A DNA stretch of 64,000 bases from the NCBI GenBank assembly GCA_030648295.1, contig JAUSID010000289.1, positions 1 to 64,000 on the forward strand, written 5' to 3'. A program made the translations under genes and the position numbers. The stretch is from Opitutaceae bacterium. GTDB lineage: Bacteria; Verrucomicrobiota; Verrucomicrobiia; Opitutales; Opitutaceae. The first letter of the stretch is position 1, and each line of letters starts with the position of its first letter. Of the stretch, positions 46,733 through 52,205 are shown in pieces. The notes beneath the pieces were generated by a model. The model worked only from the letters and a program-made list of their open reading frames with translations. It did no database searches and was not told the DNA's origin.

Positions 46733-47539
46733 TTAATTTCCGCCGCTCGCCGCCGCGCTGGTCTTCGCCTGTGTCGTGGCCGCCTGCCTGGCCATCTCCG
46801 CGATGTCGGCAGCGGGCAACACCACCATCCACGTTGGCCGCCCGTTCGCGAAATGTTGCAGCGAGATCCCGAGCACGCGTCCTTGAGGATCGAATACGGG
46901 CGTCGCGATCGACTGCTCCGTCAGCATGAAAAACCGCCGCGGCTTCTCGACAATGCCAATCACCTCGGTCGCACGCACGGTCGGCACCCGTTGGAGCGTC
47001 TTGGGCGCGCGCGAGACGAAGAAATAGTTTCCCAGGACAACTCCTTCCGCCGGCTTGGTCAGATCGACGTGTGCATACTCGCGACCCGGCTCCACCGTTT
47101 CCGGCGCCATGAACGCGAGATCGAGGTCGGCATCCTTGAGGACAAATCGCGCCGGCACCTCCTTGCCGTCGGCGAGCCGCAGCTTCACTTCCTTGAAGTC
47201 GGTGCCGACCAGTTCCGGCGCGCGGCCCCCGCCCTGCTGCGAATTGCGCATGGCATCGAACTGTACCTGGGGATCAACCGCGGCGAGTGTCGTCACGGTC
47301 AACCCCGTCGCGGAAATGACGGTGCCGTTGATCTCGATTCGTTGTTCGCGCGCCGGCAGCTCCCGATCGCCCATCTTCATCTTCAGCGTCACGACGAGTT
47401 CCACCCCGACCACGGCGTCGGCGTATCGTTTGGCCAACGCCCGGCCGGCGGCGGCGTCGGCCTCCGGGGCCGCGGCGAGCGGCAGGGCAGCCCCCGCGAC
47501 CAGCGCGGCCGCAAGCACGATTGAGGAGGAATGTTTCAT
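46733..47539 (-). CDS. Trypsin-like pseudoprotease (inactive HtrA-type paralogue)
   Basis: The product is 268 residues from MKHSSSIVLAAALVAGAALP, a signal peptide. The chain follows the trypsin-like fold of its upstream neighbour: INGTVISATGLTVTTLAAVD aligns with the HtrA segment around the catalytic His, DADLDLAFM with the Asp segment, and EQSIATPVFDPQGRVLGI with the GNSGGP serine loop. The catalytic His is replaced by Leu or Ala (85-86) and the Ser by Ile (211); only the Asp (about 140) remains. There is no PDZ domain. Its ATG overlaps the stop of the active HtrA-like gene by 4 nt. A regulatory or substrate-holding role with that protease is likely but unproven. Confidence 0.8.
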   Translation of the reverse strand: MKHSSSIVLAAALVAGAALPLAAAPEADAAAGRALAKRYADAVVGVELVVTLKMKMGDRELPAREQRIEINGTVISATGLTVTTLAAVDPQVQFDAMRNSQQGGGRAPELVGTDFKEVKLRLADGKEVPARFVLKDADLDLAFMAPETVEPGREYAHVDLTKPAEGVVLGNYFFVSRAPKTLQRVPTVRATEVIGIVEKPRRFFMLTEQSIATPVFDPQGRVLGISLQHFANGRPTWMVVLPAADIAEMARQAATTQAKTSAAASGGN

Positions 47540-49623
47540 GGGGTTGATTTGACCGGCTTGAGGTTGATTTCGACGAACTGCGTCTGGCCTCGGCGCCGCA
47601 CGAGCAGCACCCACCATGACTTGCCGTTGGCCACCGTCTCTTCGCGCGAGCGTTTCAGGTCTTCCAGATTCATGACGCGGGTCGTGCCTGCCATTTCGAT
47701 GACGTCGTCGGCTCGCAATCCGGCCAGCGCCGCCCAGCCCGCGGGCACTGCGCTTTCCACGATTGCGCCCCGGGCATCGGTGGCGATCTGGAGTTTCACG
47801 CGATCGTCGAACGCGATGTCGCGCGCCGAAAACTCCAGCGCGAGATCCTGCCACCACGCCATTTCCGCCGGCGGAACCGGCTGCTCCTCCAGCGTCACCT
47901 TCACGTCCTTTGCCGCGCCCTCGCGCCAGATCGAGAATACCGCCTCGGTGCCGGAACGATACTGGCGTATCTGGCGTGCCAGTACATCGCTGTCCTCCTG
48001 CCGCCGGGCCGGGACCACGGTGCCATCGATGGCGAGGATGATGTCGCCGATTTGCAGGCCGGACTTCTCCGCCTGCGTGCCGGGGTAGATCCGCGTCAGC
48101 CGGGCACCACCGTCGGCCTTGACCCCGAGCCGCGTCGAGAGCTTGGGCGTGAGCGGCTGCGACGAGGCGCCGAGCCAGGCCTTGCGCGCCTGGAGGGTCA
48201 CGTTGCGTTCGTCGAGCGCGCGGAGTTCGACGACGGAACTCAGCACCGCGCCGTCGCGTCGGACGCTCGCGAGGACAGTGCGCACGCCCTTGGGCGCATC
48301 TTCCATCAGCGTCCGGGTCAGTTCGCGCAACTCGGCAACCGTGCCCACCGGCTTCCCGTCGACTGCGATCAGGATGTCTTCGCGGCGAAGCGTTGGCTCG
48401 GCCTGACCGCATGGGCCCGCCGGCCGGACATTCTCCAGCCACACGCCACGAACATCGGGCAGACGCTCTTCCCGCGCGAGCTTCGGGGTGATATCACGGG
48501 CCACCGCACCCCACGTCCGCAGTTCGACATCGTCCGCACGCGCTGGCTCGCGCTTGGTGAGCTTGAGCCGCGCGGACTGTTTTTTTCCCGCGCGTACAAA
48601 TTCGACCGTGAAATCACTGTCCGGCATCTGGCTTGCCTCGATGCGGTAAAAATGCGCCACGGCTTTTTCCTCGGCACCCTCGATGTCGTGACCATCGCAC
48701 GCGAAAATCACGTCGCCGGGTTCCAGCGCCGCCCCCGCCGCGGGGGAACCCGCGGCGACATCGCCGACGACCACGCCCTTGGCCTCCCCGTCGGCCTCCA
48801 GCCTGGGCTGCACCGTCAGGCCGGACCAGCCGCGGGTCACGCGGCCATGCTTGATAATCTGCTCGGCGACCACACGCGCGAGGTTGCTCGGAATCGCGCC
48901 GCTCAGGCTCACCACGCCGATTTCGTTGATGCCAACAATATCGCCGCGCGAATTCACGAGCGGACCACCGCTATTGCCGCCGAAAATCCGGGCATCGTGC
49001 AACACCCAGCGCACCAGTTGCCCGACGTCCTCGCCGCGCAACATCATCCGGCCGACCGTCTGCTCCGGCAGCACGAGCGAGGGGTTCGACACCACGCCGC
49101 GCGTGACCGATTGCGAGAGAAACCCGGGGCTGCCGAGCGCGAACACTTCCTCACCGGCGACCAGCGACGATGAATCGCCAAACTTCGCCGTCACCAGCGG
49201 TGCCGCATCCTTCGGCCGCTGCGTGAGCTCGAGCTGCAACACCGCCAGATCCGTCAGCGCATCCTGGCCGACGAGCCGCGCCTCGACATGCGAACCGTCG
49301 TAGAGGTAGCAGCGGAAAAAGTCACCATCCTCCGTGACATGACAATTCGTGACCAGATGCCCCTCGAGTGAAATGATGACGCCGCTGCCGCCGGTCCACT
49401 GCTTGGTCAGCCGGCCGTCGCTCGGCCGCAGGCGAATCGCCTCGATTCGAACAATCGAGGGAAAGACGCGCGTGAGCATCGGATCCTCGGCCGGCGTCAA
49501 TTTGGCCTGAGCAGACGCGGGCGGCTTGGCGCCATTGGCCGCCGCGAGAACGGCGGCGCCGCTCAAACACCACGCGCCGCAACAGAGAATCGCGCACATC
49601 CATCGGCTCATCAACAAGGTCAT
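47536..49623 (-). CDS. HtrA/DegP-like serine protease with several PDZ domains
   Basis: The product is 695 residues with the start at MTLLMSRWMCAILCCGAWCL, a signal peptide; an ATG 12 nt inside is possible. The catalytic triad is complete: H95 in LVTNCHV, D125 in DALTDLAVL, S218 in GGNSGGPL. Downstream are PDZ-type domains at about 285-360 (GVVVGDVAAGSPAAGAALEP), 400-470, 510-590 (LTRIYPGTQAEKSGLQIGDI) and a last one near 620-690 (VPAGWAALAGLRADDVIEM). This is about 200 residues longer than typical DegP, which has two PDZ domains. It should degrade or chaperone misfolded periplasmic proteins. It is followed, with overlap, by its catalytically dead paralogue. Confidence 0.9.
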   Translation of the reverse strand: MTLLMSRWMCAILCCGAWCLSGAAVLAAANGAKPPASAQAKLTPAEDPMLTRVFPSIVRIEAIRLRPSDGRLTKQWTGGSGVIISLEGHLVTNCHVTEDGDFFRCYLYDGSHVEARLVGQDALTDLAVLQLELTQRPKDAAPLVTAKFGDSSSLVAGEEVFALGSPGFLSQSVTRGVVSNPSLVLPEQTVGRMMLRGEDVGQLVRWVLHDARIFGGNSGGPLVNSRGDIVGINEIGVVSLSGAIPSNLARVVAEQIIKHGRVTRGWSGLTVQPRLEADGEAKGVVVGDVAAGSPAAGAALEPGDVIFACDGHDIEGAEEKAVAHFYRIEASQMPDSDFTVEFVRAGKKQSARLKLTKREPARADDVELRTWGAVARDITPKLAREERLPDVRGVWLENVRPAGPCGQAEPTLRREDILIAVDGKPVGTVAELRELTRTLMEDAPKGVRTVLASVRRDGAVLSSVVELRALDERNVTLQARKAWLGASSQPLTPKLSTRLGVKADGGARLTRIYPGTQAEKSGLQIGDIILAIDGTVVPARRQEDSDVLARQIRQYRSGTEAVFSIWREGAAKDVKVTLEEQPVPPAEMAWWQDLALEFSARDIAFDDRVKLQIATDARGAIVESAVPAGWAALAGLRADDVIEMAGTTRVMNLEDLKRSREETVANGKSWWVLLVRRRGQTQFVEINLKPVKSTP

Positions 49624-51635: not shown

Positions 51636-52205
51636 TCACGAGCGCGGAAGCGATTCCGGCGCCACCAGGAGTCGAATCGAACGCGCCTGGCCCGGCGTGC
51701 GCGCGATCAACCCCAGCCGTGCGAGCCGCTGCATCATCTGGTTCACTGTCGGCGCGGAAACGAGGAAATGCCGCTGGATATCCGACTCAGCCGGCGCGCG
51801 GCCATATTTGGAGATGTAGCGCTGGATGAACGCGAGGTATTGACCCTGCTTGGACGTGAAGCGACCGCGAACGCCGCCGCGCCGCGATTTAAGTGCCGGT
51901 TCGGCCTCGTCTTCGTCCGCTGCCTCCTCCCGTTCCTCGCGCGCCGCCGCTTCGTCTTGGGCGGCGACCTCCATGAGCCGCCGCGCCAGCGCCCGCGCGT
52001 CAGCGGCGGAGGTGCCAATGCCGATCTCATCTCCACGGATCTGTTTCGTGGCGGCCGGACATCTCTCGCTGATGCGGATGCTGACATTGTCACCGTAACC
52101 GGGCACCGAGCGGTTAAGGGAGACCTCCACGTCCCAATACCCGTCAACCAAGTTGAGCCTTACCGAAGAGTTTTCGTTCACGGCGTCGTTGAACCGCGTG
52201 GTCAC
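51636..52205 (-). CDS. LexA-type winged-helix regulator without S24 peptidase
   Basis: The product is 189 residues from MTTRFNDAVNENSSVRLNLV. The first about 75 residues are a small beta-rich domain of unknown family (GYWDVEVSLNRSVPGYGDN), followed by an acidic, Ala/Glu-rich linker (about 80-105). Residues about 118-182 match the LexA DNA-binding fold: TSKQGQYLAFIQRYISKYGR, then APAESDIQRHFLVSAPTVNQ and MMQRLARLGLIART. The C-terminal autoproteolytic S24 domain of LexA is absent, so it cannot respond to RecA by self-cleavage. It may be a regulator sensing something through the N-terminal domain. It lies in the decayed accessory island. Confidence 0.75.
   Translation of the reverse strand: MTTRFNDAVNENSSVRLNLVDGYWDVEVSLNRSVPGYGDNVSIRISERCPAATKQIRGDEIGIGTSAADARALARRLMEVAAQDEAAAREEREEAADEDEAEPALKSRRGGVRGRFTSKQGQYLAFIQRYISKYGRAPAESDIQRHFLVSAPTVNQMMQRLARLGLIARTPGQARSIRLLVAPESLPRS

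Follow-up and report, generated by a model that had tools for sequence, protein, structure and literature searches.

Control of HtrA proteases has been described in terms of PDZ-domain ligands and self-assembly, and, to our knowledge, the bacterial Do proteases act without a catalytically dead partner. Here, we analyze a gene pair on the minus strand of contig JAUSID010000289.1 of an Opitutaceae bacterium (46733-49623 of the 64,000-nucleotide stretch examined, hereafter the window), which codes for an HtrA-type serine protease with four PDZ domains (P1) and, immediately downstream, a trypsin-fold protein that has lost its catalytic residues (P2). We posit, with a probability of roughly 0.6, that the two are subunits of one periplasmic HtrA system, with P2 serving as a dedicated non-catalytic subunit that sets the activity of P1.

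Several described systems offer points of comparison. In magnetotactic bacteria, as in the P1/P2 pair, an active HtrA-type protease (MamE) and a separate trypsin-fold pseudoprotease (MamO) are encoded in one gene cluster; MamO is reported to be required for MamE-dependent proteolysis though a residue of its triad can be mutated, and pseudoproteases are described as having evolved independently in three magnetotactic taxa (PMC4794232). MamO has a metal-binding di-histidine, whereas P2 has no conserved His, and we saw no link of P1/P2 to magnetosomes. In the plant thylakoid lumen, Deg5, which lacks a PDZ domain, is reported to form a 1:1 hetero-oligomer with Deg8 (PMC4877387), and protease activity of Deg5 is stated never to have been detected (PMC3640471). 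This, too, is a PDZ-less HtrA partner of a PDZ-bearing HtrA, but Deg5 keeps the triad residues that P2 lacks, Deg8 has one PDZ domain against four in P1, and the partnership of P1 and P2 is known from gene pairing. Plant Deg7 is described as combining one active and one dead protease domain (PD) with four PDZ domains, the dead domain being involved in trimerization, and the algal protein is given the order PD-PDZ-PDZ-dead PD-PDZ-PDZ (PMC3473262). P1 and P2 hold the Deg7 domain inventory on two chains, whereas in Deg7 all of these domains sit on one chain, the dead one in the middle. Yeast Nma111 is similar to Deg7. DegP, DegQ and DegS resemble P1 in protease domain, triad and PDZ domains and P2 in fold, but P1 differs from them in its four PDZ domains and in lacking the activation Gln. 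Finally, the S1C domain of RsgI9 from Clostridium thermocellum, the best sequence-level match of the P2 profile among solved proteins, is, unlike P2, part of an anti-sigma factor.

Dead HtrA homologs are not rare; four PDZ domains look unusual. The pair resembles MamE/MamO, Deg5/Deg8 and the dead domain of Deg7, yet is a separate two-gene module, and we found no description of a fixed pair of this kind in the open-access literature, which was covered mostly through titles and abstracts. With its constant dead partner, such a recurrent two-gene module would add a further mode of HtrA control, and it offers a natural experiment in the fixation of pseudoenzymes. As far as we know, little work has addressed envelope quality control in the phyla that carry the pair, Verrucomicrobiota and Planctomycetota.

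Conserved pairing of P1 and P2

Named genomes were scanned with P2 as the sole query, which gave 103 relatives, from which 80 loci were kept; counts out of 80 refer to these. Judged by record title, the loci belong to Verrucomicrobiota, apart from four in Planctomycetota metagenome bins (L131, L142, L155 and L165). In 79 of the 80, P2 is preceded on the same strand by a P1-type gene, which is cut by a contig end in a few; the exception (L115) starts at a contig edge. P1 and P2 occupy two separate frames in the window and likewise in 79/80 related loci. The spacing between them, which depends on the start-codon rule chosen, is -4 in 32/80 loci, including 26/26 of the two-gene pairs in L102-L128, and otherwise ranges from -16 to +144.

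A survey of 384 genomes of the class recovered a long P1 together with P2 in 39, P2 only in two and P1 only in none (Fisher p 2e-51, a statistic that ignores kinship). Both genes share one contig and strand in 38/39 of these genomes, and the gaps from match to match, measured over 39 same-contig pairs, are 9 to 590 nucleotides (nt), with 37 of them below 100. P1 matches at E up to 1e-100 split into 39 genomes at 768 bits or more versus three at 339-344 bits (G062, G074 and G087); the latter, which cover 435-440 of 674 positions in the first two thirds, were left out as ordinary HtrAs, taking the count from 42 to 39 genomes. In the class scan with P2, seven weak matches were dropped (G450, G407, G183, G069, G292 and the second match in both G211 and G389), taking the count from 46 to 41 genomes, and three further ones were dropped from another scan (G026, G048 and G069). 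The dropped matches have E values of 3.9e-5 to 9.1e-4, and a search of the G026 and G069 stretches with the P2 profile gave no match. The class scans scored up to six P2 and three P1 candidates per genome, and all or nearly all for G394, G435 and the genus. At the genus level, P1 and P2 are present in 20/27 genomes (one P1 being cut by a contig end) and neither is found in the other seven. The phylum sample yielded P2 in 23/387 genomes. Of 20 stretches retrieved next, some of them from the class set, P1 precedes P2 on the same strand in 18, in one case with about 550 nt in between; the other two are L255 (see below) and L256 (G621), in which the order is reversed and the frame of P1 is broken. 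G029 is a single-contig genome carrying the pair.

An earlier note on this DNA, made without database searches, had proposed a fixed active/inactive pair and a search for conserved pairing in related genomes as the check. That search found the pairing, both in the kept loci and in 39 of the 41 class genomes with P2, and it is stronger than the earlier note could know. Adjacency, joint presence and absence, the constant loss of Ser in P2, the constant triad of P1 and similar purifying selection on both genes (see below) all bear out the idea of a fixed pair.

Protease domains of P1 and P2

P1 has a Trypsin_2 domain (95.4 bits) with the full His-Asp-Ser triad (H95/D125/S218), followed by four stretches matching PDZ_2 in Pfam that are also visible as four PDZ-like units in the structure model, just as the earlier note had read a complete triad and extra PDZ domains from the sequence. 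The triad is constant in the P1 family, with H in 100/100 and D and S in 101/101 of the rows covering each site (the alignment has 106 rows, some being the same contig twice, once per collection). A Trypsin_2 domain with a triad and C-terminal PDZ domains place P1 among the HtrA/Do (S1C) proteases, and it scores 315 bits against the cut-off of 416.2 for the NCBIfam Do family TIGR02037; on these scores, P1 is a divergent HtrA rather than a canonical Do.

HtrAs carry a QTDA motif ahead of the catalytic Ser, and we take the Gln of this motif to be DegP Gln200. Gln200 is reported to belong to the activation cluster of DegP (PMC11642142). At this position, matched to P1 via an alignment with a DegP-like chain, the 101 covering rows of the P1 family show Gly (51), Leu (49) or Ala (1) and never Gln, with Leu in the P1 of the window, while the following residue is His in 101/101 and both W206 and N180 are invariant. 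Four other HtrA-like domains from the window's genome (L001-L004) keep QTDA and another has QIDA (L007); the motif is missing from more distant ones (L006, L008-L010). Since P1 lacks the activation Gln and falls below the Do cut-off, its active state is probably not reached in the manner of DegP or DegS.

In P2, Trypsin_2 is the sole Pfam family at E up to 1 (30.9 bits versus a cut-off of 27.6). A profile-profile alignment of P2 to P1 (probability 94.6%, E 6.5e-8) places Ala86 at the His site, Asp140 at the Asp site and Ile211 at the Ser site. The structure model of P2, built on an alignment of 72 sequences, has a mean predicted local distance difference test score of 93.8; a Foldseek search with it lists DegP, HtrA1, DegS and MamO among the first 11 matches, and VIA-align Z scores give near-ties between DegS (19.7), DegQ (19.6), Deg5 (19.5) and MamO (18.5). 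P2 has the HtrA fold but no catalytic triad, and is a paralog of P1 in the sense of a shared fold. The earlier description of the downstream protein, with the trypsin-like fold and a signal peptide kept, His and Ser lost and no PDZ domain, held in each respect, the signal peptide by eye and by a helix in the model. Among solved proteins, RsgI9 (E 0.00036) and MucD (E 0.0083) are the only two that the sequence profile of P2 matches at E up to 0.01, so the kinship appears to be old.

The loss of catalysis extends across the P2 family. None of 87 distinct sequences (107 rows) has a full triad; the Ser site is occupied by Pro (30), Leu (28), Ala (9), Val (8), Met (6) or other residues (6) but in no case by Ser, His is found at its site in a single sequence (L146), and Asp is kept in 85/87. 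The scan that supplied most of these rows was keyed on stretches around the Asp and a neighboring strand, not on the His or Ser sites. The triad is likewise absent, by eye, from 13 tandem P2 copies of five further genomes, and P2 is the only dead one among the 11 Trypsin_2 domains of the window's genome, all three residues being present, by eye, in the other 10. Other positions are strongly conserved, R184 and K199 among them: P200 and R201 of a family motif are present in 87/87 distinct sequences, as are D89 and E127 of an acidic set that further includes D136 (86/87), D138 (84/87) and the former triad residue D140, and the loop that once held the Ser keeps the shape residues G212 (84/87), P214 (85/87) and F216 (83/87). 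No His is conserved in these 87 sequences, the best column reaching 26%. We also considered a protease with another catalytic residue and rejected it, the best columns being 26% for H, 29% for C and 75% for S, the last at position 84, which is not the nucleophile site. The ratio of non-synonymous to synonymous substitution rates (dN/dS), calculated for both genes from one set of 10 pairs in which dS is sometimes high, is 0.039-0.182 for P2 and 0.044-0.175 for P1; as these values are low and similar, P2 is, to judge from its substitutions, not a decaying copy and is about as constrained as P1.

Proposed role of P2

Their joint retention in bacteria that are only distantly related suggests that P2, though dead, probably works as a partner of the active protease. 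P1 would be the catalytic, PDZ-bearing subunit and P2 a subunit in which the HtrA fold was kept and the chemistry lost. The two are likely translated together and exported to the periplasm, where they would most likely assemble into mixed HtrA trimers or into two stacked trimers, one of P1 and one of P2, both the contact and the stoichiometry being predictions. P2, as an accessory or regulatory subunit or within a mixed oligomer, may then set the activity of P1, more likely by completing or stabilizing the active conformation than by inhibiting it, since P1 lacks the Gln of the canonical activation cluster. As P1 is probably not activated in the DegP or DegS way and has a fixed partner, an activating or assembling role for P2 is the most economical reading that the sequences allow. 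A more specific version, which we advance tentatively and hold to be rather doubtful, is that P1 cannot switch itself on and that a P2 trimer supplies the contacts missing after the change from Gln to Gly or Leu, at the loop with the invariant W206 and H209. If so, P2 would be the founding case of a family of activators built in as subunits, which in one lineage diversified into three different pseudoprotease domains per protease, and the on-switch of an HtrA would be a dead twin and not a peptide on a PDZ domain.

Several observations weigh against a joint system of two subunits. The correlation of the P1 and P2 trees (mirror-tree r = 0.94 over 73 loci) is expected from common descent alone, and co-regulation can keep genes adjacent without contact between their products. 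Orphan P2s exist in G394 and G435, neither of which has a long P1; these are divergent, match no Pfam family at E 0.001 and lie beside an alanine racemase or a ribosomal S4 gene, and elsewhere the two genomes have only ordinary HtrAs (best 173 and 207 bits). They show that P2 is able to persist alone, or as a remnant. L255 is a short contig with P2 and no P1, a P1 fragment being found on another contig of the same genome (G529). The earlier note had staked the idea of a pseudoprotease partner on P2 homologs neither occurring alone nor having an intact catalytic site; the latter part stood, as none of the homologs examined had an intact site, and the former gave way only for the divergent P2s without a partner (G394, G435 and G529). 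From the MamE/MamO comparison comes the report that the protease domain of MamO alone is insufficient to activate MamE and that the TauE membrane domain is needed (PMC4794232), a domain for which P2 has no Pfam match. Nor does P2 seem likely to bind the PDZ domains of P1 through its C-terminus, a candidate role that we rejected, as its tail is not a typical hydrophobic ligand and ends in Ile or Met in only 2/73 sequences.

Other roles for P2 have to be weighed against that of a partner subunit. P2 could act in the same pathway without touching P1, its old active site now being a ligand or metal site and the linkage serving joint expression. MamO is reported as a trypsin-fold pseudoprotease that binds transition metals (PMC4794232), and the conserved acidic residues of P2 could suit a ligand or metal; however, P2 has no conserved His, so a site like the di-histidine of MamO is not expected, and the linkage outlasts changes of neighbors between lineages, a persistence that seems to go beyond the requirements of joint expression by itself. 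This leaves a pathway role without contact unlikely. We regard it as similarly improbable that P2, as an adaptor or chaperone outside the protease ring, binds substrates and hands them to P1: the shape residues kept in the former Ser loop speak for it and the four PDZ domains of P1 could bind clients and P2 together, but the C-terminus of P2 does not look like the hydrophobic ligand of a PDZ domain.

The direction of the effect could also be the reverse, with P2 a specific inhibitor that is co-translated with P1 and holds it inactive until stress sets in. Constant pairing with a gene overlap, as seen here, is also known from protease-inhibitor pairs, and the absence of a long P1 without P2 from the class genomes (0/39) fits either role; yet P1 already lacks a canonical activation residue, a state easier to square with a need for help than with a need for a brake, and we rate an inhibitor as quite unlikely. 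That P2 is simply a decaying pseudogene copy of the P1 protease domain, as its lost catalytic residues might hint, is contradicted by the dN/dS values and the invariant residues among the 87 distinct sequences, and it can be practically dismissed. A dedicated partner subunit is the reading we prefer.

Layout, neighbors and variants of the locus

The features of the pair are listed in Table 1; the coordinates, the strand and the 4-nt overlap of the two genes had been given correctly in the earlier note. Both signal peptides were judged by eye together with an N-terminal helix in each structure model.

Table 1. Features of the P1/P2 pair in the window (aa, amino acids)
Feature	Position	Strand	Basis
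P1, 695 aa, HtrA/Do-type serine protease, apparently exported, with a single protease domain and four PDZ domains	47536..49623	-	Pfam, NCBIfam, model
P1 signal peptide, approximately residues 1-28	49540..49623	-	by eye and helix 2-31 in model
P1 Trypsin_2 domain, residues 79-232	48928..49389	-	Pfam, alignment
P1 catalytic triad	H95 49339-49341; D125 49249-49251; S218 48970-48972	-	alignment
P1 activation-loop region, residues 180-211, invariant N180, W206, H209	48991..49086	-	alignment
P1 PDZ domain 1, approximately residues 269-355	48559..48819	-	Pfam PDZ_2, model
P1 PDZ domain 2, approximately residues 366-468	48220..48528	-	Pfam PDZ_2, model
P1 PDZ domain 3, approximately residues 486-577	47893..48168	-	Pfam PDZ_2, model
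P1 PDZ domain 4, approximately residues 590-687	47563..47856	-	Pfam PDZ_2, model
ATGA overlap of P1 stop and P2 start, 4 nt	47536..47539	-	sequence
P2, apparently exported trypsin-fold pseudoprotease, 268 aa, without PDZ	46733..47539	-	Pfam, model, profile alignment
P2 signal peptide, approximately residues 1-24	47468..47539	-	by eye and helix 5-18 in model
P2 Trypsin_2 domain, residues 72-225	46865..47326	-	Pfam
P2 former triad	His site Ala86 47282-47284; Asp140 (kept) 47120-47122; Ser site Ile211 46907-46909	-	profile alignment
P2 family motif KPR(R), residues 199-202	46934..46945	-	alignment

Upstream of the pair in the window lies mpl, which was found in at least 21/80 loci (a lower bound, some loci being truncated) and was rejected on this count as a part of the P1/P2 system. 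RimO is found near the pair in 16/80 loci, and 13 other loci have an AI-2E transporter, DnaB, an HlyD protein, an epimerase, a glutamyl-tRNA synthetase-like protein (GltX-like), an FKBP or others. As the neighbors differ between lineages, P1 and P2 likely form a self-contained two-gene unit. In L155, another PDZ protein is encoded upstream of the pair, and a gene of about 430-450 aa directly follows P2 in several marine Opitutales (e.g., L134:8769-10052 and L178:8745-10103); these two, the ones tested, have no Pfam match at E 0.0001.

Copy number and domain context of P2 also vary. In three loci (L250, L251 and L252 from G480, G516 and G551), a single P1 precedes a tandem array of three dead P2 domains, of which the second and third share an open frame, and two others (L253 and L254) have two tandem copies of P2, as if, and we offer this as a suggestion only, a partner ring had diversified. 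In L179 (7971-11396), the P2 frame runs into DUF7133 (168.9 bits) and a cytochrome c domain, as if the pseudoprotease had been joined to an exported redox protein, though this could be an assembly error. An Oleiharenicola metagenome-assembled genome (L118:7932-9700) has a second P2-like frame overlapping the end of the P2 frame. Elsewhere in the window, at 51636-52205, a 189-aa protein without a match to a peptidase domain displays a LexA DNA-binding domain at its C-terminal end.

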